Source: Pontimicrobium aquaticum (GTDB lineage: Bacteria > Bacteroidota > Bacteroidia > Flavobacteriales > Flavobacteriaceae). Taken from it: DNA of 64,000 nucleotides. This document shows, piece after piece, positions 11,400 through 64,000 of this stretch. Within the stretch, counting starts at the first letter, position 1. Every line of letters starts with the position of its first letter. Position numbers and translations under genes: made by a program. A model generated the notes under the pieces. The model had not been told where the DNA came from. It was given only the letters and a program-made list of their open reading frames with translations, and made no database searches. The DNA is taken from positions 558,001-622,000 of the forward strand of contig NZ_SUPL01000001.1 of the NCBI RefSeq assembly GCF_005047595.1. Reading direction: 5' to 3'.

Positions 11400-13163
11400 C
11401 TATCTCTTAATTTGTTTGTCTAAAGTTGAAATTACTCGTACTGCTTTATCGTAATCTTGTTGCATTTCAACATTCGAAAATGGTGTGTATCTTGCTAGCT
11501 CACAACTTTCAAGGAGACTGTTAAATTCTACAACCGTATTATTATTAACAGATTTTTGAGTTAACAATTCTGAGATTTTGTCTTTACTAAACTCACTCGT
11601 CTCGATATGAAGTTTAGATTTTAAATAATTATGTAATGCACGTTCTAAGGCGTTGTAAAATTCTTCTTTGTTGCCTAAAGATTTTTTTGCTTCACTTAAA
11701 TACTTTCGAGCTAGTTTATTAGCTGTTCTTATTTTATTTCCTACAATGTCATTATCTCTTTCTATTTTTTTACGCCTTAGTAAGATTGTTATTGGAATAA
11801 TTAAAAAAGGCACTAATAATAACATCCAAAAAGACTTAGATTTATAGAAATATGATGTCTCGATTGGAATGAAATTGGTTTTTGTTTTAAAAGATAAGAA
11901 TTGTCCTACAACCTGTACTACTGGTTCTTTTGTTAAAGTTGTAGTATTTTCATTAGTGTTTTCACTACTTATAGGTCCTTCGTTAACATTAATTACAAGC
12001 TCATCAGATGTTATTGTTCTATAGCGCTTTGTATTGATATCGAAATACGAAAATGAAACACTTGGTATTGGATATTTACCCTGATAAGATGGCACAATGG
12101 TATAAGTATCTGATATTTGCCCTTGCATTCCTGCTAAAGTTGTTGATACATTTTCACTATGTTCGGGCTCGTAAACCTCTAATGAACTTGGAAGTGTTAA
12201 CTTAGGGAGTTCAAAAAGTTTTAAGTTTCCTTTTCCAGATACTTTTACGGTTGCCTCTAAAGCTTCGGTTGCTTTAAGTTGACTTTTATTAGCTGATACT
12301 TCAAAATCAAAGCTTCCTACAGCTCCCGAAAAATCTAATGGTCTGCCTTCTTTAGGCAATGGTTTTACATTAATGGTTCTGTTACCTGCGGCAACTGTAC
12401 GATGTACTGTTTTTAATAGTCTGCTTCCAAAAATATCACGTCTGTTAGTTGGCACTTGAACCTTAATATCTAAGGTTAAAGGTTCAATATTAAGTTTACC
12501 GGTTTTTTGTGGATAAAGTACCGTTTTTCTTAGAACAACATACCTATAATCTTCTCCTTTATAAGTACTATTTATAAGCTTTAATTCCTTTACATTAATA
12601 TTCTGACTCCAAAAATCGGCATATCTTGGATTATCTAATTCTCTCCATGTTTCAACTCCTGTATTAGGTGAAATATAGAGTTTATATACAACTGTGATGG
12701 CTTCGTTTAAATAAGGATTGGTTTTTGAAACTTCGGCTACTAAATGAATGTTTTGTGACGCTATATAGTTTGGGTCGTTAACGTCTTTGGGTTTATCTAT
12801 GGCAGCAGTCACCTCTACAGTAATAGGTAATGTTTTATAGGTTTCGCCTTCTATCTCTATAGTAGATTGCCCAATGGTAAACCTTCCTCTTTTTTTAGGT
12901 GCCAAAAAATAACTGTAGGTTTTTGAAAACGACCTAACACCATTTATCCAAGAATTATTAATGGCTTGACTAGGGCCTCCAACAATGGTAAAGTTTTCAA
13001 AATTTGGTGGATTAAAGTTATCGCCATCCTTATTCATTACAAAATCGATGCGCAAACGCTCATTTATACCTAATTTTTTCTTACTAACTTTTGCTTCAAA
13101 AGTTACTTGAGCTGAAGCAAAACAGGTGATTAAAAATGCAATTATATGGAGCTTGAGTTTCAT
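11400..13163 (-). CDS. batD: BatD family protein
   Basis: A 587-residue protein with a signal peptide (LHIIAFLITCFASAQ). Several Ig-like beta-rich domains follow, with the characteristic opening VTFEAKVSKKKLGINERL. A TM segment lies near 440 (FWMLLLVPFLIIPITILL), followed by a helical cytoplasmic tail with EEFYNALERALHNYLKSKL. This is the BatD arrangement. The bulk faces the periplasm, with the tail in the cytoplasm near the VWA partners. It lies between batC and batE. Confidence 0.88.
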   Translation of the reverse strand: MKLKLHIIAFLITCFASAQVTFEAKVSKKKLGINERLRIDFVMNKDGDNFNPPNFENFTIVGGPSQAINNSWINGVRSFSKTYSYFLAPKKRGRFTIGQSTIEIEGETYKTLPITVEVTAAIDKPKDVNDPNYIASQNIHLVAEVSKTNPYLNEAITVVYKLYISPNTGVETWRELDNPRYADFWSQNINVKELKLINSTYKGEDYRYVVLRKTVLYPQKTGKLNIEPLTLDIKVQVPTNRRDIFGSRLLKTVHRTVAAGNRTINVKPLPKEGRPLDFSGAVGSFDFEVSANKSQLKATEALEATVKVSGKGNLKLFELPKLTLPSSLEVYEPEHSENVSTTLAGMQGQISDTYTIVPSYQGKYPIPSVSFSYFDINTKRYRTITSDELVINVNEGPISSENTNENTTTLTKEPVVQVVGQFLSFKTKTNFIPIETSYFYKSKSFWMLLLVPFLIIPITILLRRKKIERDNDIVGNKIRTANKLARKYLSEAKKSLGNKEEFYNALERALHNYLKSKLHIETSEFSKDKISELLTQKSVNNNTVVEFNSLLESCELARYTPFSNVEMQQDYDKAVRVISTLDKQIKR

Positions 13164-17982: not shown

Positions 17983-18849
17983 TTATCCTCTTCTCTTAAA
18001 ATATCCCAATAATTTTTTCACGTAACTTTCGTCTGCACGACAATCTATAACGCCAGCTCCTGATTTATTAAAGCTATCTTTATAATAATCTACCTTATCT
18101 CTATAATATTTACCATAATTAAGGCGTACTTTTTTTGACGAAGTATTTACCAATAGTAATTCGCCTGTTTCCTCGTCTTGCATTTGTACCATTCCAAGAT
18201 TAGGAATACTTTCTTCATGCTTATCATATATTCTAATGCCTGTAACGTCATGTTTTTTAGCAGCAATTTTAAGTGTATGATGGTAATCATCTGCTATAAA
18301 ATCACTTAACACAAAAACAATAGCTTTTTTCTTCATCACGCTAGATAAAAACTTTAAAGCTTCAGCAATATTTGTTTTTTTGCTTTTAGGATGAAACTCA
18401 ATTAACTCACGAATAATACGCAACACGTGTGATTTTCCTTTCTTGGGCGGAATGTATAATTCTACATCATCAGAAAATAAAATTAATCCTATTTTATCGT
18501 TGTTTTGAGTGGCTGAAAAAGCTAAAGTTGCCGCAATTTCTGTAACCACTTCGTTTTTAAACTGCTTAACTGTTCCAAAAAATTCTGATCCTGAAATATC
18601 AACCATCAACACCATAGTAAGTTCTCTTTCTTCTTCAAAAACTTTAATATGAGGTTCATTGGTTCGTGCAGTTACGTTCCAATCTATGTTACGCACATCA
18701 TCTCCATATTGATACTGACGTACTTCACTAAAGGTCATACCTCGCCCTTTGAAAGTAGAATGGTATTCTCCTCCAAAAATATGATCAGACAAACGACGTG
18801 TCTTAATCTCAATTTTTCGAACTTTTTTTAGTAACTCTTTAGTATCCAT
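17983..18849 (-). CDS. DUF58 domain-containing protein
   Basis: A 288-residue protein with the DUF58 hallmark FSEVRQYQYGDDVRNIDWN followed by TARTNEPHIKVFEEER, then a degenerate VWA fold (MVDISGSEFFG; FVLSDFIADD). Members work with MoxR-type ATPases, probably in assembly or activation of VWA proteins. It is cytoplasmic with no membrane segment. It lies downstream of moxR, separated by a 97-bp repeat-like insert, and 3 bp before the next operon gene. Confidence 0.92.
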   Translation of the reverse strand: MDTKELLKKVRKIEIKTRRLSDHIFGGEYHSTFKGRGMTFSEVRQYQYGDDVRNIDWNVTARTNEPHIKVFEEERELTMVLMVDISGSEFFGTVKQFKNEVVTEIAATLAFSATQNNDKIGLILFSDDVELYIPPKKGKSHVLRIIRELIEFHPKSKKTNIAEALKFLSSVMKKKAIVFVLSDFIADDYHHTLKIAAKKHDVTGIRIYDKHEESIPNLGMVQMQDEETGELLLVNTSSKKVRLNYGKYYRDKVDYYKDSFNKSGAGVIDCRADESYVKKLLGYFKRRG

Positions 18850-56456: not shown

Positions 56457-57289
56457 TGCAAGTTTTAAAAAATTACATTTTTGAGCGGCAAAAAAAGAAA
56501 CCAATACTTATTGATGCTTTTTATTCTAAAAGTAAATCTAATCAGCCAATAATTATTTTTTGTCATGGTTATAAAGGATTTAAAGATTGGGGTGCTTGGA
56601 ACGTTATGGCTAAAAAAATTTCTGAATCTGGTTTTTGTTTTATAAAATTTAATTTCTCGCATAATGGAAGCACAATGGAAAATCCTATTGATTTTCCAGA
56701 TTTGGAAGCCTTTGGACAAAACAATTACACCAAAGAGTTAAACGATTTAAACGATGTTATTAGTTGGTCACAACACCACTTTAAGGACGAACCTTTTGTT
56801 AATACCAAGAGCATATGTCTTATTGGTCACAGTCGTGGTGGTGGTATATGCATATTAAAGGCCTCTGAAGACAAACGCATTACAAAGCTTATAACTTTAG
56901 CGAGTGTTTGTGACTTTGAAAAACGTACAGCAACTATAGGAAATCTAAAAGAATGGAAAGAAAAAGGCGTAAAATATGTTTTAAATGGTCGTACTAAGCA
57001 GCAAATGCCACACTACTATCAATTTTATGAAAATTTTATTGCTAATAAAAAACTATTAAACATAAAATCTGCAACCAAAACATTAACCATTCCGCAACTA
57101 ATTATTCATGGTGATAACGATACTTCTATAAACATTAAAGAAGCTAACGAATTACATAAGTGGAATCCAAATAGTAAATTACAAATTATTAAAGATGCAG
57201 ATCATGTATTTAATACCAAGCATCCTTGGGAATCTAATGAGCTTTCCCCAGAACTGGAGGTGGTTGTAAAATCAATTACAAATTTTTAA
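56456..57289 (+). CDS. Alpha/beta hydrolase
   Basis: A 277-residue cytoplasmic hydrolase. It has PIIIFCHGYKGFKDWGAWN (oxyanion-hole strand), nucleophile elbow LIGHSRGGGI (GHSRG), the acid in IIHGDNDTSINIKEA, and His in KDADHVFNTKHPW. It resembles dienelactone hydrolase/prolyl-oligopeptidase-type esterases; substrate unknown. It starts at the last base of the AddB-like gene (A of TAATG), so it is co-translated. It is the last chromosomal gene before the integrated element. Confidence 0.85.
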   Translation: MQVLKNYIFERQKKKPILIDAFYSKSKSNQPIIIFCHGYKGFKDWGAWNVMAKKISESGFCFIKFNFSHNGSTMENPIDFPDLEAFGQNNYTKELNDLNDVISWSQHHFKDEPFVNTKSICLIGHSRGGGICILKASEDKRITKLITLASVCDFEKRTATIGNLKEWKEKGVKYVLNGRTKQQMPHYYQFYENFIANKKLLNIKSATKTLTIPQLIIHGDNDTSINIKEANELHKWNPNSKLQIIKDADHVFNTKHPWESNELSPELEVVVKSITNF

Positions 57290-57292
57290 TAG

Positions 57293-57338
57293 TGGAGAAG
57301 ATGGGATTCGAACCCACGACCTCTTGACTGCCAGTCAA
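57293..57338 (-). tRNA. Partial tRNA-Ala(GGC), 3' fragment at an attachment site
   Basis: On the minus strand it reads TTGACTGGCAGTCAAGAGG, then GTCGTGGGTTCGAATCCCAT, then CTTCTCCA. These are the anticodon arm (loop CTGGCAG, anticodon GGC), the variable loop, a T arm with GTTCGAATC, and the acceptor 3' strand. The 5' half (acceptor 5' strand and D arm) is absent; the sequence beyond is island DNA. This is the expected remnant where a tyrosine integrase inserted into a tRNA 3' end. The intact gene should lie at the other end of the element, outside the window. No CCA is encoded. Confidence 0.85.
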
Positions 57339-57387
57339 AATTTTAATTATATTTTAGTTTATCATCATTTCTATTTTCTTTTGTATA

Positions 57388-57429
57388 TATAACAAAAATA
57401 GAGAAAAGGTTTTGTTCTATTTTGTTATA
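57388..57429. promoter_or_regulatory. Inverted repeat upstream of the integrase gene
   Basis: TATAACAAAAATAG (57388-57401) and CTATTTTGTTATA (57417-57429) are inverted copies differing by one extra A. They lie between the tRNA fragment and the integrase gene, a suitable place for an operator or integrase/excisionase binding. Confidence 0.5.
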
Positions 57430-57462
57430 TTGTATGCAAATTATGTATTTTTGTATGCAAAT
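57430..57462 (+). repeat. 12-bp direct repeats, candidate integrase arm sites
   Basis: TTGTATGCAAAT occurs at 57430-57441 and exactly again at 57451-57462, 21 bp (two helical turns) apart. A partial TATGCAAT follows at about 57466. They overlap the only part of the integrase frame with no homology, supporting a DNA-site role and a later start codon. Confidence 0.55.
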
Positions 57463-57484
57463 AATATGCAATAATTATTTAATT

Positions 57485-58732
57485 GTGAAAAGAGAATATT
57501 CCATATCAATCTATCTAGACACAAGAAGACCTAAATCTAATGGCAAGTATCCCGTTAAATTAAGAGTTTTTAGCTCAAACCCTAGAAAGCAAAAATTATT
57601 CCCCACCGTGTTTGACCTAACAAAAAAAGAATTTGATAGTATTTGGCTATCAACAAAGCCGCGAAACAAAAACAAGAAAATTCGAATGCAAATTCAAGCA
57701 ATAGAAACTAAGGCTAATGAAATAGCAGATAAGCTTAACATCTTTTCATTTGAACAATTCGAAAGAAAAATGTTTAGAGAAAAAGGAGAGGGAACAAAGA
57801 TAAGCTATCACTATCATCAGCTAATAGAACACTATCGCAAAAACAATCGCTTAGGGACTGCCGACTCCTATAAATACAGTGAAAAAGCTATAAGCGAATT
57901 TGTAGAAAACAAAAATAAGAAGTATAACAAATTAAGCTTTTTCGATATTGATAAAAACTGGCTAAATGAATTTGAAAACTATTTAAAAATAACTGGTCGT
58001 AGCATAACTACAGTAGGGATATTCTTAAGACCGCTAAGAGCAATTTTCAATAAGGCTATAGCTGAAAATGAAATAGAGCAAGAAATATATCCATTCGGTA
58101 AAAGAAAATATCAAATTCCTTCTTCTAGAGCTTCAAAAAAGGCATTGACAAGGGAGCAACTTAAAATTCTATTTAACTCTACTCCAAGTACTCCAGAGCA
58201 AGAAAAAGCCAAAGCTTTTTGGTTCTTTTCATTCAACTCTAATGGAATAAACATTAAAGATATTGCATTACTTAAGTTTAAGAACATTGATGGCGAAACC
58301 ATTAAATTCTATAGAGCTAAAACTCTTTTTACTTCAAAATCTGACTTAAAACCAATCACTATTTATCTTAACGATTATGCTAAATCATTTATTGAAAAAT
58401 ATAGTAACAAGAATACACATCCTGAAAATTATGTGTTTGATATCATATCAGAAACAATGAATGCAGAAGAACAGCGATTAAAAATAAAGGGCTTCACAAG
58501 ATTTATCAATCAACATTTAAAGAAACTGTGTAAATCTATTGGACTTCCTAATGAAATATCTACCTATTGGGCAAGACACAGTTTTGCCACAACATCAATC
58601 CGCAAAGGAGCTACCATGGAACTCATACAGGAAAGTTTAGGGCATAAGAATATTAAAACAACTCAGTCTTACTTTAATGGATTTGAAGATGAAACAAAAA
58701 AAGAATTAGCAAAACAATTAATGGATTTTTAA
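57485..58732 (+). CDS. Tyrosine site-specific integrase
   Basis: A 415-residue recombinase from the GTG at 57485 (KREYSISIYLDTRRPKSNGK). The frame stays open upstream to 57422, but that part is repeat DNA. The N-terminal arm-binding domain (about 1-60), SAM-like core-binding domain (about 85-200) and catalytic domain (about 215-415) are in order. The catalytic domain has TYWARHSFATTSI (Arg II, with Tyr where His is usual), LGHKNIKTTQSYF (His III and nucleophilic Tyr), and FNSNGINIKDIALLKF where Arg I is normally found but seems replaced, as in other Bacteroidota integrases. It adjoins the split tRNA-Ala. Confidence 0.93.
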   Translation: MKREYSISIYLDTRRPKSNGKYPVKLRVFSSNPRKQKLFPTVFDLTKKEFDSIWLSTKPRNKNKKIRMQIQAIETKANEIADKLNIFSFEQFERKMFREKGEGTKISYHYHQLIEHYRKNNRLGTADSYKYSEKAISEFVENKNKKYNKLSFFDIDKNWLNEFENYLKITGRSITTVGIFLRPLRAIFNKAIAENEIEQEIYPFGKRKYQIPSSRASKKALTREQLKILFNSTPSTPEQEKAKAFWFFSFNSNGINIKDIALLKFKNIDGETIKFYRAKTLFTSKSDLKPITIYLNDYAKSFIEKYSNKNTHPENYVFDIISETMNAEEQRLKIKGFTRFINQHLKKLCKSIGLPNEISTYWARHSFATTSIRKGATMELIQESLGHKNIKTTQSYFNGFEDETKKELAKQLMDF

Positions 58733-58735
58733 ACT

Positions 58736-59491
58736 ATGGATACCAAATACATTAATAAAACGGTATTACCCTATTTAAATGAGGTCTTCTTCCCCGAAAT
58801 ACTGATTGGCGAGTTAATTCAATACGTTGTAGATGAAAATGGCTTTCAAGAAAGAACTAATAAAGATAAATCCCCTGATGATTGGGATTATGCCCAAAAC
58901 GAACTGGTTGATATCACACCTGAAGACATCCTATATAAAGCAAAACATTATTTCAATACATCCAATTTTACCCAAACACAAATAGAGAGTATTTTTAAAG
59001 GTTTAGACATGTCTCTTGAACGATTTAAAAAAAAGACTCCAAAATCTTTTGTTTCTTTTGACTGGAAAAACAAATGTAAAAATGAAAAAGCCATTCCAGA
59101 AGCAAACAAAAGACAACAAGAAATAATTAATATCTATACTGCACTTAGAAATAAACTATTAGGAGTCAAAATCAATAAGTCCACTATAGATGAAACTGCT
59201 TTGAAATATGTTTACTTGGGTATTGATATTAATAGGTCAAATTGTAATATTCACGCCAATGACAACAATCATAAATCAGGTGAAAAGCTTTACCAGCGTT
59301 ACATCTATTTTTTAAATAAAAACAATCGTATTGTCCCTCCTGACCCAATCTCCTTCATTAAATTTAGAAACAAAATAGAATTATTCGAGTCTGTTTTTGA
59401 AAAGCTGCCACTTAACAAGAGAGATATAGCTAAAGCTGACCTTGATTGCTTAAAAGAAAAATTCATTAATCTATATAATGATAAGTTGTAA
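58736..59491 (+). CDS. Hypothetical island protein
   Basis: A 251-residue soluble protein, starting 3 bp after the integrase stop. No signal peptide or TM. It contains DDWDYAQNELVDITPEDILY in the first third and a lysine-rich helical remainder (KFINLYNDKL at the end). I recognise no family. Tight coupling to the integrase suggests a role in the element's own life cycle rather than cargo. Confidence 0.65.
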   Translation: MDTKYINKTVLPYLNEVFFPEILIGELIQYVVDENGFQERTNKDKSPDDWDYAQNELVDITPEDILYKAKHYFNTSNFTQTQIESIFKGLDMSLERFKKKTPKSFVSFDWKNKCKNEKAIPEANKRQQEIINIYTALRNKLLGVKINKSTIDETALKYVYLGIDINRSNCNIHANDNNHKSGEKLYQRYIYFLNKNNRIVPPDPISFIKFRNKIELFESVFEKLPLNKRDIAKADLDCLKEKFINLYNDKL

Positions 59492-59559
59492 CTAAAAATA
59501 ACTAGTTACATACTCCAACAAAATATAATATTGCCATATCAATTTTAAAATAAGGTAAT

Positions 59560-59871
59560 ATGAATAATCCTTTTGAATATATAGAGGCAAGGTTAGATAA
59601 GATTGAAATACTATTACTTGACATTATACAAAACCCTAATAATATGTCAGGTGATAAACATGACAACCCTATTGATATCAAAGCTGTTTCAGAGTTGACA
59701 GGATTATCAGTTCCAACTCTTTATGGTTATTGCCATAGAAGAGAAATTCCTTTTCATAAAATAGGCAATAGGTCAAAATTTTTCAGAAATGAAATCTTGG
59801 CTTGGATTAAATCAAAAAAGCAAGAGACCTTCAAAGAAATTGAAGCTAATGCAAATAAATACTTAAAGTAA
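59560..59871 (+). CDS. Excisionase/AlpA-like helix-turn-helix protein
   Basis: A 103-residue protein. A short N-terminal helix (EYIEARLDKIEILLLDIIQN) precedes a MerR-type winged HTH of the excisionase family (about 42-95: IDIKAVSELTGLSVPTLYGY, REIPFHKIGNRSKFFRNEIL). In integrative elements such proteins act as recombination directionality factors or activate the element's genes. Position downstream of the integrase fits. ATATTGCC and GGTAATAT near 59530-59562 form an imperfect inverted repeat overlapping its start and may be its binding site. Confidence 0.85.
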   Translation: MNNPFEYIEARLDKIEILLLDIIQNPNNMSGDKHDNPIDIKAVSELTGLSVPTLYGYCHRREIPFHKIGNRSKFFRNEILAWIKSKKQETFKEIEANANKYLK

Positions 59872-59926
59872 GAAAGTAATCCTAAATACTGAATTATACA
59901 ATAAGGAGGGGAAACCTGCATTAACC

Positions 59927-59949
59927 TTGTTGCGTTTAATAAACAACAA
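59927..59949. repeat. Inverted repeat directly before the HUH endonuclease gene
   Basis: TTGTTGCGTTTAATAAACAACAA: TTGTT and GTTT pair with AAAC and AACAA around an AAT loop, with a 2-nt bulge. It ends 2 bp before the ATG at 59952. It is a candidate origin/nick site for the encoded HUH enzyme or its operator. AAGGAGGGG at 59903-59911 is an unusually strong anti-16S match but too far from the ATG to be its ribosome binding site. Confidence 0.4.
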
Positions 59950-59951
59950 TT

Positions 59952-60323
59952 ATGAGTTTAATTACTAATGCCTACGGGAATTGGCTAACATCAATGAAAT
60001 GGGATTACAATGCAACCCTTAGAAGACATTTTGCAATAACTGAATTTAACATACATCCTCTAATGGACAATTTGATAAAGTACAAAAGCATAAATAAGCT
60101 GTTTTGCTGTATAGAGGAAGATAGAAATGATAATATGACCCATCTACATTTACTGATTGACACTAACGCGTCCTACTCCAAAGAACGTTTATCAAAAGAA
60201 ATAGGAGTTAACAAAAAAACTGTCAGTTATTTAGACAGAATTAATGATATCAACCAAATTGGACATTATGTAACTAAAGACTTTTGGAAAAGAACCTCAT
60301 TCTACGATATAAGATTTAAATAA
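59952..60323 (+). CDS. Single-domain HUH endonuclease (Rep-like)
   Basis: A 123-residue protein that looks like a lone HUH Rep domain. Motif 1 candidate RRHFAITEF lies near residue 25. Motif 2 is FCCIEEDRNDNMTHLHLLID with the HxH metal pair (about 71-73). Motif 3 is GHYVTKDF with a YxxK catalytic tyrosine (about 109-112). The order and spacing match rolling-circle replication initiators. Y1 (IS200-type) transposases share the HUH centre but usually differ after it. No helicase domain is attached. Placed between an excisionase-like and a terminase-like gene, it may start replication of the excised element. Confidence 0.6.
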   Translation: MSLITNAYGNWLTSMKWDYNATLRRHFAITEFNIHPLMDNLIKYKSINKLFCCIEEDRNDNMTHLHLLIDTNASYSKERLSKEIGVNKKTVSYLDRINDINQIGHYVTKDFWKRTSFYDIRFK

Positions 60324-60353
60324 GTTATTGATATTCCTAACCTTAACTGAGAA

Positions 60354-60911
60354 ATGAAGAAACAAAAAAAACCTCTTAAAGATTTATACAAAAATATCAT
60401 TGACCAATACTTTTTAAATGGTTTCAATGGAATTAAAGCTGTAAGAACAGTTAAAGGCTCAATGTATAATTATAATAGTGCTGCTAGCCTTTTCAACACA
60501 GTTATCAAGCACACAGACTCAATAGCTTATATTCAAGCCAAGAGAGAAGCTTTAAGAAGTAGCGTTTCTATTAAGAATGAAGACATATTAAAAGAGTTGA
60601 TTAACTGGGCTTACTCAGATATAACTGATTACATCCTTCTTACTCCGTCAGAATTAAAACAGCTCCCAGAAGACCTGAAACGTTGCATTCAATCAGCAAC
60701 ATATAAAAAAAAGAAATACGTTACAAGACAAGGTGAAGAGGTAGAAGAGGAAGTGATGACAGTTAAACTCGTTGATAAATCAAAAGCATTAGAAATGATT
60801 AATAAACATCTTGGGTTTTACCTTGAAGACAATAAACAAAAGTCCAATCCAATTAACATAGAACGTCTAAGTGTTGATACACTTAATGCCTTACTACAAG
60901 CAATAGAGTAA
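60354..60911 (+). CDS. Terminase small subunit-like protein
   Basis: A 185-residue protein. The N-terminal part resembles the DNA-binding domain of TerS proteins (IDQYFLNGFNGIKAVRTVKG, then SAASLFNTVIKHTDSIAYIQ, like the SRLLRNxKVxxYI pattern). The middle has ILKELINWAYSDITDYILLT and LPEDLKRCIQSATYKKKKY. The tail VKLVDKSKALEMINKHLGFY matches the conserved KALELLGKHLG ending. TerS recognises packaging sites. No large terminase, portal or capsid gene is in view, so it may redirect a helper phage's packaging. Confidence 0.65.
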   Translation: MKKQKKPLKDLYKNIIDQYFLNGFNGIKAVRTVKGSMYNYNSAASLFNTVIKHTDSIAYIQAKREALRSSVSIKNEDILKELINWAYSDITDYILLTPSELKQLPEDLKRCIQSATYKKKKYVTRQGEEVEEEVMTVKLVDKSKALEMINKHLGFYLEDNKQKSNPINIERLSVDTLNALLQAIE

Positions 60912-61130
60912 CACCACAAACCCCAAAAGAGGTGTTAAAAGGACACTCTTGAAAGGTATCCATACAATTTTGGAAGTTTTCAAATAAGTTATGAATAAAA
61001 CCCATTAAAACCCATTAATGTAAAACACTGGTTATCAATTAAAATTCAGAATTGGGCTAATAGACGAGCTATTGCACATATACATAAACACAATTTGAAA
61101 TTTTTGGTGGGTGGTGAAATATAAAAAACC
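60912..61130. other. Non-coding spacer with short repeats in the island
   Basis: No gene is visible. It contains tandem AAAACCCATT words around 61000-61020 and a GTGGGTGGTGAAAT stretch before the lipoprotein gene's 3' end. It separates the int-to-TerS block from the cargo genes. It could hold a packaging site or replication origin; I have no direct evidence for either. Confidence 0.3.
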
Positions 61131-61763
61131 TTATAAATCTTCGATAGCCTTTTCGATAGATGCTTTCTCTTTTTCTATAACCTTTTTTTCTAATTTTCTG
61201 GCTTCATCTTGTGTTTCATATTTAAAATGGAGCAATAATCTATATTTAAAATTATAATCATCTTCAACTATATTCAATCGAATACTTTTATTTCCTATTT
61301 TCCATTCTATATTTGGCAATTGATTATATATAAAAGTGTCTGTCGGGATGCCATATTTTTTAATTAATATTGATTTTAAAGAAGAAAAATCATCCAACAT
61401 ATAATTTTTGAAATAATTATAATTCCTAATCTGCCCATACAGTCTTAAATGCCTAAGCCCTCTATTTTCATCATAAAAATCTGGTCTCATAGAAAATTTA
61501 AATGTTCCCAGCTTACCATTGGTTGAGTTTAAAAACTTCTCTTTCTCCAGTACATATTCAGCTTTACTAATTCCAAAATTAATATTCCCTACCGCTATTT
61601 TTTCTTCAATTTTTATAATACTATCTCTGCTGTTTTCGGCTGCCAATCGAACACTATCAAATTTCTCCTTGCCTTGCTGCTTATATGAATTGTTATTTCT
61701 ATTATCGCCACAGCTATAGATTAAAATAATTAAAATAGCTAAAATAAATCTGTTAAATATCAT
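61131..61763 (-). CDS. Island-encoded lipoprotein of unknown function
   Basis: A 210-residue protein with a lipoprotein signal (FILAILIILIYSCGDN, Cys about residue 18). A coiled polar region follows (DSVRLAAENSRDSIIKIEEK), then an alpha/beta domain with FGISKAEYVLEKEKF and KYGIPTDTFIYNQLP, ending in a charged helix (KKVIEKEKASIEKAIEDL). I recognise no family. Lipoproteins carried by phage-related elements sometimes block superinfection, but here that is only a possibility. Confidence 0.7.
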   Translation of the reverse strand: MIFNRFILAILIILIYSCGDNRNNNSYKQQGKEKFDSVRLAAENSRDSIIKIEEKIAVGNINFGISKAEYVLEKEKFLNSTNGKLGTFKFSMRPDFYDENRGLRHLRLYGQIRNYNYFKNYMLDDFSSLKSILIKKYGIPTDTFIYNQLPNIEWKIGNKSIRLNIVEDDYNFKYRLLLHFKYETQDEARKLEKKVIEKEKASIEKAIEDL

Positions 61764-61823
61764 AGTTTTTGCATGCTTTGATTAAAAATTCTTGTCTTTA
61801 AAAGTAGCAATTATTTTATATTG

Positions 61824-61841
61824 GACACAAACATGTGTCCG
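61824..61841. promoter_or_regulatory. Perfect palindromic operator of the XRE-family gene
   Basis: GGACACA-AACA-TGTGTCC: 7-bp perfect inverted repeat with a 4-bp centre. It is 32 bp before the XRE gene start and in the divergent region shared with the lipoprotein gene, so it could control both. Confidence 0.65.
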
Positions 61842-61872
61842 ATTAGTTTATTTGATGTACTGATATTTCGGT

Positions 61873-62103
61873 ATGCCAAAGAAGTATTCATCGTCAAAAC
61901 AAGAGTTTTTAAAAAAGCTAGGTAACACTCTTAAAGAAATTAGAATGTCTAAAGGGCTTTCTCAATTCCAATTAGCTATTGAAGCTGAAATTCCTAAAAA
62001 TCAAATAGGTCGTATTGAGCGAGGTGAAATAAATACTAGTGTTTATACTTTAAAAAAAATTTCTGTGGCATTAAAAACGCCTGTTGACGAGTTTTTGAAA
62101 TAA
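61873..62103 (+). CDS. XRE family HTH regulator
   Basis: A 76-residue single HTH_3 domain protein. KLGNTLKEIRMSKGLSQFQL is followed by EIPKNQIGRIERGEINTSVY, the classic Cro/CI-type recognition helix, and a closing helix SVALKTPVDEFLK. Compact regulators of this kind control mobile-element or defence genes. The perfect palindrome at 61824-61841 in its promoter suggests autoregulation. It converges with the ATPase gene with no intergenic base. Confidence 0.92.
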   Translation: MPKKYSSSKQEFLKKLGNTLKEIRMSKGLSQFQLAIEAEIPKNQIGRIERGEINTSVYTLKKISVALKTPVDEFLK

Positions 62104-64000
62104 TTAACTAATTCTTTTCAGCAAGTAATCTGTACTATCAACCATTTCATGACATATATATTTTTCAAACAAGTTCTTTTCTTTTTCAACATGGCTGTAC
62201 GTAGTTAATATTATTTGACACTTATTTTCTTCTATGTGCTCAATCAAGCTAATGAACTTTTTAAGTGTTTTATTATCCAAATTTTGCTGTTTTGGTTCAT
62301 CAAAAATTAAGATGTTTGGGAATTTGATGTTATTATCTTTTTCAAGTTTAACGGAAGTCTGTAATAAACTCAAATAATAACTTAAAATTATACGCACATT
62401 ATCACTTGAACTCACAATATTATAGATGTCATATGAATCTAAATAAGGCGTGTAATAATCGTTTTCATCAATTTTTATTTGATTTATTAATTGCTCTTTA
62501 CTTCTGAACAATTCAAGCTCTCTTACATTGTTTCTAAAATTATCTACAATAGACTTTAAAATTTCAAGGTCTCCTTTTGTGTATTTTAAATCCCTTAGCT
62601 TTTCATCTATCGTCTTTTTTTCAGCCTCTAACTCCGCCAATTCTTCCCTGAAATAATCCAATTCTTGCCATTTTCTAGACGCCCATCTATATCTCTTAAT
62701 TTCTTCCCTAATATCATCTAACTCTAAAACCTTTAATTTAATTTTAGATTTACTAGAATCAGAATAGGTGTTAATACTGTGCTCAATTGTTTCCTCAAGC
62801 TCTTTTAGCTTGGCTTTTTGGTCTGCGATAGCTACTCCTACCTTTCTAAGTTCCAGCTTCTTTGACCGTAGTACTTCTTTAAAAGATTTTTCTTCGTCTT
62901 CTAAAAAAGCCAAATTTTGTTCTGGAGAAGATATTTTCCTTTTTAATTTAGAATGACATAGTTTGCATTCTCCTTCTTCCTCAACATTTAATTCTGTCTC
63001 ACATACAGGACAAGAATTAATGTTTAAAGTTAAAGCTAGATTTTCAATTTTCTTTAACTGTCTATTTTTGGCTTTGTTAATCTGTATTCTTTCTATATAA
63101 TTTACGTAGCCACTTATTTCTGAATTAAGCTTATTCGCTCTGTCAATTGATTTTCTTAATTTGTAATCTAACCTTCTAAGCCTAGTTCTCAAACCCTTAT
63201 TTTCATCTTTTAAACCAGAATCACTCTCACTTAAGTTTTCCAGAACTTCTAACTCACGATTGTATTTTTTATCTAAATAACTTAGCCCATCATGAACACT
63301 CGTTTTACCAATATCACTTCTGTTTACTAACAATACACTCCCATCTTTTTCACCGTTTATTCCAACAATAATCTCTTCCTCTCTATCTCCAAGTACAGCC
63401 TTTTTTCTTCTTATTTTCTCCAGTATTTCCTTCTTCCTTATTTCAATAAGATGTGACTCAAACCTATCTAATCCCATTAGGTATTCGAAAGCCACTCTTT
63501 TGACATCCCTAATACCATACCTTGTTACTTGCATTGACTGAATTTGTGACCACCCTGCTCTCTGTTCCACAAAAAACAAAGGGGTTAAATTCTCAAAATA
63601 CAGTTTTGATGCTCCCCCGTCATAAGTTGGCACTTCTAAGAATGGTATGTTCAAAAACTTATAAAGATAGTGTTGTAGCCCTCCTTTTGAAGCAACTCCA
63701 TCTCCTACTGCAACGTAATAGTTAATTTTTTTTGTTGAGTGAAAATCTTTGATTTTACAGTTTTTAATTCCTACTACATTGGTTTTACCTATAATGCTTC
63801 TTGCTATGGTTATTGTTTTTTTACCATTAGATATTTCTAATTGAACAAATGATGTTGAAATCTTTTCTCCCTCTATGACATCATAAAATTCAGGTTTAAA
63901 TGGATTTTGACTAGATTTAAAAATCCCAAAGGACTTTTCTAAACCCATAGAATAGAGAATTCCAATTATTATACTCGTTTTACCTAAAGAATTTGGGCCA
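62104..64000 (-). CDS. SMC/Rad50-like ATPase with zinc motif, 5' end outside the window
   Basis: The frame stays open to the window edge, and the last visible codons encode GPNSLGKTSIIIGILYS, a Walker A loop. The apparent ATG at 63948 is therefore internal and the gene starts beyond 64000. Visible part: 631 residues. Counting from that ATG, long coiled coils occupy about 165-310 and 345-490. Between them is a zinc-binding pair, CPVC and CKLC (about 313-331), like the Rad50 hook. A degenerate ABC signature SSSDNVRIILSYY lies near 513, and Walker B ILIFDEPKQQNLD near 546-558. Related coiled-coil ATPases act in DNA repair and antiphage defence; which applies is not decided here. Confidence 0.85.
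   Translation of the reverse strand, partial: GPNSLGKTSIIIGILYSMGLEKSFGIFKSSQNPFKPEFYDVIEGEKISTSFVQLEISNGKKTITIARSIIGKTNVVGIKNCKIKDFHSTKKINYYVAVGDGVASKGGLQHYLYKFLNIPFLEVPTYDGGASKLYFENLTPLFFVEQRAGWSQIQSMQVTRYGIRDVKRVAFEYLMGLDRFESHLIEIRKKEILEKIRRKKAVLGDREEEIIVGINGEKDGSVLLVNRSDIGKTSVHDGLSYLDKKYNRELEVLENLSESDSGLKDENKGLRTRLRRLDYKLRKSIDRANKLNSEISGYVNYIERIQINKAKNRQLKKIENLALTLNINSCPVCETELNVEEEGECKLCHSKLKRKISSPEQNLAFLEDEEKSFKEVLRSKKLELRKVGVAIADQKAKLKELEETIEHSINTYSDSSKSKIKLKVLELDDIREEIKRYRWASRKWQELDYFREELAELEAEKKTIDEKLRDLKYTKGDLEILKSIVDNFRNNVRELELFRSKEQLINQIKIDENDYYTPYLDSYDIYNIVSSSDNVRIILSYYLSLLQTSVKLEKDNNIKFPNILIFDEPKQQNLDNKTLKKFISLIEHIEENKCQIILTTYSHVEKEKNLFEKYICHEMVDSTDYLLKRIS

Follow-up and report, generated by a model that had tools for sequence, protein, structure and literature searches.

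Phage-inducible chromosomal islands (PICIs) carry no genes for a large terminase (TerL) or a capsid, and a gene for the small terminase subunit (TerS) is optional in them. In one account (PMC6092414), PICIs are described as replicating via a primase homolog and an initiator, and TerS of the Staphylococcus aureus pathogenicity islands (SaPIs) as directing preferential packaging of the element; its main text contains no word beginning with "Bacteroid" or "Flavo". The phage-inducible chromosomal minimalist islands (PICMIs) of the Vibrionaceae have an average size of 6.7 kb and a virulent helper phage, according to their description (PMC10803314). Their model, which includes an AlpA of family PF12728, gave 135 matches in complete genomes, 67 of these in Vibrionaceae, and their DNA pattern was called consistent with plasmid-like rolling-circle replication; the introduction of the same paper also mentions virion-encapsidated integrative mobile elements (VEIMEs), marine integrative elements found in virions. 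Here we describe an element from Pontimicrobium aquaticum, a member of the Flavobacteriaceae, that begins within a stretch of 64,000 nucleotides (the window) and is quite probably an integrated phage satellite of 8.6 kb, organised in the manner of PICIs and PICMIs and known here from its sequence alone.

The element resembles PICIs in its specific attachment (att) site, integrase (Int), AlpA (as in Gram-negative forms), replication module, terS (present in some PICIs) and accessory genes at one end. It has the att repeats and the pair of int and AlpA/Xis, and no TerL or capsid gene was detected in it; the difference is that a single-domain HUH replication protein (Rep) replaces the primase-type module, and no origin was found. 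With PICMIs it shares int, a gene contiguous or overlapping with int, AlpA, a replication gene, a defence gene and small size, and its 251-amino-acid (aa) gene X stands where PICMIs have iolg/icg. An int and an AlpA of the HTH_17 type are present, whereas the DUF3987/DUF5906 primase and the integration at fis that characterise PICMIs, whose prototype is without terS, are absent; here we find HUH, a site in tRNA-Ala(GGC), and TerS. The element is therefore neither a PICMI member, as two defining features are lacking, nor a proven PICI, as the replication feature is lacking. The sequence-only reading, made from the letters of the window, had stated that no described family has this exact composition. 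This fits the literature, since no such satellite occurs among the titles and abstract openings listed for Bacteroidota/Flavobacteriaceae, HUH, SatelliteFinder and Lamassu topics (with few subscription papers, and preprints only via PMC); a separate class is not indicated, and the element is rather a variant of PICI/PICMI-like satellites.

The window covers positions 558001-622000 of a contig in a 3.31-Mb draft genome, and sequence beyond the window is given in window-equivalent positions. From core to core the element measures 8,600 bp. At either end it is bounded by a 49-bp copy of the tRNA-Ala(GGC) 3' end, the two copies being identical. The attL core (57290-57338, minus strand) is the displaced 3' end, and the attR core lies past the window end at window-equivalent 65890-65938; the intact tRNA-Ala(GGC) gene occupies window-equivalent 65892-65966 (minus strand). 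A second match to the attL region lies downstream, at contig positions 623883-623938. The split tRNA-Ala(GGC) of the sequence-only reading and the far attachment site that it placed past 64000 were thus both found. The element it delimited is real, but its end at 60911 was wrong, the true end being window-equivalent 65938. The G+C content is 29.6% in the element versus 32.9% in the window left of it, and the element's in-window portion (57283-63999) gave no DNA match to plasmids and phages.

A flanking gene for a 277-aa hydrolase-like protein is present in all six genomes of the genus, including that of P. aquaticum. In three of the five congeners (G003, G004 and G005), the hydrolase gene, tRNA-Ala and a UspA-like gene adjoin uninterrupted, representing the empty site. 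Congener G001 carries a 15.5-kb sister element in the same tRNA-Ala, with an integrase 75% identical to that of the window and an AlpA 40% identical; residues 125-243 of X are 38% identical to its second gene. Where HUH and TerS stand here, the sister encodes a 437-aa protein that matches no Pfam family above cut-off, and type I restriction-modification genes follow. In congener G002, about 22 kb separate the hydrolase gene from tRNA-Ala, and the listed part (L068) consists mostly of paralogous genes, 12 of the 20 listed open reading frames (ORFs) sharing a start of the MIKFFR type. L068 also contains a partial att core (18613-18643), and this site looks like the result of stepwise accretion.

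The sequence-only reading had named a tyrosine integrase, an unknown protein, an excisionase/AlpA-like helix-turn-helix protein, a single-domain HUH Rep instead of the usual primase/helicase, and a TerS-like protein, with cargo following and no capsid, portal, large terminase or tail gene, and had taken the whole as a PICI-like satellite. The observed parts were confirmed and the interpretation largely held, on the evidence given here and below. The tyrosine integrase (57485-58732, plus strand, 415 aa) has three Pfam domains above cut-off: Phage_integrase (2e-14), SAM_5 (2.8e-16) and Arm-DNA-bind_5 (3.1e-6). It probably starts at the in-frame GTG at 57485, because the left arm sites, which lie between 57422 and 57485, overlap the start of a longer ORF that begins with TTG at 57422. 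These left candidate Int arm sites (57433-57471, plus strand) comprise TATGCAAA at 57433 and 57454 and TATGCAA at 57465. Between the cores, TATGCAAA occurs four times (57433, 57454, and window-equivalent 65825 and 65836), each copy at most about 165 bp from a core; in the G001 sister element it likewise occurs four times near the cores, with identical 21- and 11-base spacings. We infer that the repeats are Int arm sites, and the integrase indeed carries an arm-binding domain (Arm-DNA-bind_5). Gene X directly follows int (58736-59491, plus strand), and family searches with its 251-aa product gave nothing above cut-off. The next gene encodes the AlpA/excisionase-like protein of 103 aa (59560-59871, plus strand), which matches HTH_17 at 5.5e-11, above cut-off.

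The HUH Rep-like protein (59952-60323, plus strand, 123 aa) has an HLH triplet at residues 64-66, and Tyr106 and Lys109. Taken alone, it gave REP_ORF2-G2P as the sole Pfam match (0.023, below cut-off). Of 397 family genomes, 13 (its own included) gave homologs, and in a 13-row alignment of these E55, H64 and H66 are fully conserved and F51, Y106 and K109 almost fully; we take the positions H64/H66 and Y106/K109 to be the HUH and YxxK motifs. REP_ORF2-G2P was matched by six of the 13 rows at E <= 0.1 (best 6.1e-7) and 117-like_vir by three (best 0.0064). The best match of the 13-row profile in the Protein Data Bank (PDB) was SIRV1 Rep ORF119 (2X3G; 1.2e-6, profile positions 14-110), which is likewise a small Rep but of archaeal virus origin. 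Published work on this protein describes a 119-aa Rep with a flip-flop mechanism that differs from conventional rolling circle (PMC4187194). By its motifs in one small domain the window protein conforms to the Rep type, with catalysis predicted, and no primase or helicase family was matched among the element proteins.

At the 13 HUH places besides that of the window (one of which, L034, is unconfirmed by profile), int and AlpA are both near in four (L023, L028, L030 and L032), AlpA alone in one and int alone in two, and TerS is near in none. L030 carries type I restriction-modification genes. Genome contigs gave two HUH matches, in Flavobacteriaceae bacterium PRS1 and in the uncultured Bacteroidetes isolate AG-390-P11. 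One HUH copy (genome G335, L041 3737-3982), 58% identical to that of the window, is without its 5' part and has no int nearby; it is likely a remnant of a close relative.

The last gene of this run encodes TerS of the SPP1/SF6 type (60354-60911, plus strand, 185 aa). The assignment draws on Pfam (Terminase_2, 1.9e-12, 48.5 bits versus a cut-off of 26.1), PHROGs (phrog_51, 3.4e-12) and a profile search against PDB sequences (3zqp, 5.2e-17, among SPP1/SF6-type structures). A structural model that failed to relate the protein to TerS would have spoken against this; instead, the model from a 31-row alignment (predicted local distance difference test, pLDDT, 86) gave as its best Foldseek row 3zqq, an SPP1-like small terminase (E 1.1e-3), with low TM-scores of 0.25/0.34. 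By TerS, the closest named phages are Polaribacter phages P12002S (35%) and P12002L (32%), in which the matching gene is annotated as TerS and a large terminase gene follows further on. A tree of 65 rows places the window TerS together with P12002S and three viral contigs (support 100/99); among these contigs, L129 equals the P12002L record in length. This suggests a phage related to Polaribacter phage P12002 (Incheonvirus) as a candidate helper type.

TerS-bearing genomes numbered 2 of 99 among the relatives, 4 of 397 in the family, 4 of 395 in the order and 7 of 375 in the class, in samples that overlap and all include the own genome. Four other elements combine int, AlpA and TerS without TerL: those of G056, G325 and G1056, and viral contig L166 from IMG/VR. 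In G056, int and TerS are each split over two frames and AlpA is present. The G325 element (12.2 kb, gene order int-260-AlpA-255-208-905-TerS) has a 21-bp repeat with one mismatch at tmRNA and a methyltransferase as cargo, and that of G1056, from another family, spans 7.6 kb with a 46-bp repeat in tRNA-Asn and an integrase 43% identical. In the tree, TerS of G325 falls with that of L166, that of G056 lies near other phage contigs, and that of G1056 sits on a long uncertain branch. As the TerS of int-AlpA elements fall in different phage groups, the gene was gained more than once, and such repeated gain suggests selection.

G325, L166 and G056 each have one large tail- or virion-type protein near TerS and no TerL. 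The 905-aa protein of G325 (L040 6414-9131) shows 45% identity to the tape measure of phi46:1 across 62% of its own length; that of G056 (L035 10400-12694) belongs to a 764-aa virion protein family (phrog_15220, 2.3e-90) with 26% identity to the Polaribacter phages Danklef and Freya, and the 1,162-aa protein of L166 (8244-11732) is tape-measure-like by eye, with no match to annotated tape measures. Tail-length or virion remodelling is a possible role of these proteins. L166 also has a 16-bp repeat (420-435 and 12318-12333) whose second copy takes up the very last bases of the contig, so that the contig may stop at a second att site or derive from a circular form. Other TerS matches were judged not to be satellites: in G372, G169, G887 and G1037 TerL adjoins according to the TerL profile, and the G647 match, within a gene of 918 aa, seems spurious. 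In G661, two copies with neither int nor TerL beside them (L049 1260-1772 and L050 2091-2576) are surrounded by ordinary chromosomal genes, and one of the two contains an internal stop. The matches of G1085 and G826 sit on short contigs and were not counted as satellites.

The integrase was found at E <= 1e-70 in 16 of 299 family genomes, in 18 places. Besides that of the window, 17 loci of this integrase clade were read, two of the stretches stopping at contig ends. AlpA is near int in all 17 (in L102, int is split and AlpA is in the opposite orientation), and none has TerL by a profile that passed its control. Of six loci whose gene in the replication position was tested with Pfam, four gave families linked to primases by the PICMI paper or by Pfam (DUF5906 in L095, L096 and L104, and DUF3987 with PriCT_2 in L090); L093 has AAA_25, and L099 has no family above cut-off, its protein resembling phage regions annotated as primase/TOPRIM or VirE. 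The islands keep the PICMI order of int, int-adjacent gene, alpA, primase and defence, integrated at tRNA or other sites and not at fis, and those with DUF5906/DUF3987 genes are closer to the PICMI layout than the window element. The latter has HUH where these have the primase, and TerS in addition.

These relatives bear on the best-surviving alternative, a defence island in a tRNA gene, with an Int/AlpA/HUH module that travels by another route (natural transformation, general transduction or mobilisation) and with TerS as a non-functional phage-derived hitchhiker. The G001 sister element, which keeps int, X and AlpA with type I restriction-modification genes but neither TerS nor HUH, would agree with this, as would the lack of TerS from all 17 further loci of the integrase clade. 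On the other hand, the terS ORF is intact and comes immediately after the replication gene, and its repeated gain from different phage groups suggests selection. We regard this explanation as unlikely.

A decayed prophage that retained int, xis, rep and terS is more improbable still. Such gene types do occur in prophages, and the relatives of this TerS usually stand beside TerL: among 55 IMG/VR loci with TerS relatives, both were called in 43. Eight of the 55 show no TerL and no match to an unvalidated portal profile; L166 is satellite-like, and the other seven are phage pieces by eye. In the window element, however, ORFs, both att cores and the arm-like sites are all intact, and a sister with the same ends has a different cargo. 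A Pfam scan of all ten element proteins of at least 76 aa, followed through to attR, found no portal, capsid, tail or large-terminase family; nor was TerL found by an iterated profile, seeded with proteins named by reading, that recovers the annotated TerLs of P12002S (9.1e-123) and phi46:1 (4.5e-58), the first form of which, with three rows, had recovered that of P12002S only. The HUH protein, moreover, was not found among 50,697 phage records. An integrative mobilizable element with the HUH protein as relaxase for conjugative transfer is very improbable: HUH nucleases do include relaxases, and such elements often carry int and xis, but this protein has only 123 aa and matches the Rep type (REP_ORF2-G2P, SIRV1 Rep), no relaxase, type IV secretion or coupling family was matched above cut-off in the element (so that an integrative and conjugative element is not indicated either; sub-cut-off matches such as MobT, 18.5 bits versus 600, concern the helix-turn-helix part of the XRE regulator), and TerS would be left unexplained.

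We therefore return to a PICI/PICMI-like phage satellite, which is supported by the bounds, int and AlpA, HUH, TerS and the absence of structural or TerL matches. Chance does not account for the observed genes and sites: scores pass the curated cut-offs, and other loci also have the site, the arm sites and the int-AlpA backbone. Several results nevertheless weigh against it. The full int-xis-HUH-terS order, sought in relatives, was seen in the window element only, where alone HUH and TerS stand together; neither of the two is found in the 17 further loci of the integrase clade. IMG/VR gave no match to the integrase, none to a DNA pattern of the arm sites, and none to HUH, either by the single protein or by the alignment. 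The HUH model from a three-row alignment is poor (pLDDT 46), and because of this its fold match is not taken as proof; 2x3g came fifth in rank (Z 8.2, 105 residues, root-mean-square deviation 3.0), level with unrelated folds. Neither a pac site nor an origin was found, the intergenic DNA around the HUH and TerS genes folding no better than shuffles. A portal profile from three seeds named by reading recovered neither of two annotated portals and was not used for absence claims, so the absence of a portal gene rests on Pfam. Finally, a search with one family (phrog_2) turned up no credible large terminase in the rest of the genome and thus no resident helper. Its single weak match (3.7e-5) was rejected as a helper TerL, the gene being presumably PhoH-like with a similar weak match in each of the five congeners; stronger matches occur only in G004 and G005.

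On present evidence, the element probably works like a PICI. Since the phrog_2 search gave no credible large terminase in the genome, the helper would have to come from outside as an infecting phage, as it does in PICMIs. In analogy to PICI and PICMI work, such a phage would trigger AlpA, and AlpA together with Int would excise the element as a circle. From the general biology of HUH nucleases, rolling-circle synthesis is predicted: the HUH protein would nick the circle, and host or phage polymerase would extend it by rolling circle into concatemers, which would suit a headful TerS. In analogy to SaPI TerS, the element's own TerS would then mark its DNA and recruit the helper large terminase for packing into helper capsids, and after transfer Int would re-insert the element in tRNA-Ala. 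A Lamassu operon at its end (see below) would protect the host against competing phages.

In a wider proposal, for which we see about equal grounds for belief and doubt, the element represents a Bacteroidota satellite lineage in which an HUH Rep replaces the primase and rolling-circle concatemers feed headful packaging of the SPP1 type through TerS, this gene having been captured repeatedly and independently from different helpers by a shared int-X-AlpA backbone that carries defence systems between Flavobacteriaceae. In the sources consulted, the satellites described come from Gram-positive cocci and from relatives of E. coli, Pasteurella and Vibrio, with the Bacteroidota as a large phylum outside. 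If active, the element would offer a small, bounded satellite model in this phylum; it would indicate that a nickase-type initiator can stand in for a satellite primase, tying rolling-circle concatemers to TerS-directed packaging, and would provide a route for the spread of Lamassu and restriction systems. The kinship of its TerS points to the first helper type to consider (P12002-like).

The cargo predicted by the sequence-only reading turned out to be of Lamassu type. The last three genes, all on the minus strand, encode an LmuB-like SMC/ABC ATPase of 666 aa (62104 to window-equivalent 64104; PADLOC LmuB, 1.3e-64), an LmuC-like protein of 198 aa (window-equivalent 64085-64681; PADLOC LmuC, 3.4e-6) and a PDDEXK/Mrr-like protein of 315 aa in the LmuA position (window-equivalent 64683-65630). 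LmuB and LmuC in a three-gene run correspond to Lamassu, whereas the third protein has only weak PDDEXK_13/Mrr matches (0.011 and 0.049) and no PADLOC match at E <= 1. The three genes would form a Lamassu-type operon, with the effector assigned from its position. Between TerS and this operon lie a 210-aa accessory gene of unassigned function (61131-61763, minus strand), lipoprotein-like by eye, and a 76-aa XRE/HTH_3 regulator (61873-62103, plus strand). Upstream of the latter, a palindrome at 61820-61843 (10-nt arms, 90% complementary, 4-nt spacer) is a candidate operator; the stretch before the XRE gene folds better than shuffles (z -2.61, with 3 of 200 shuffles as good). Defence cargo is also found in other related islands.

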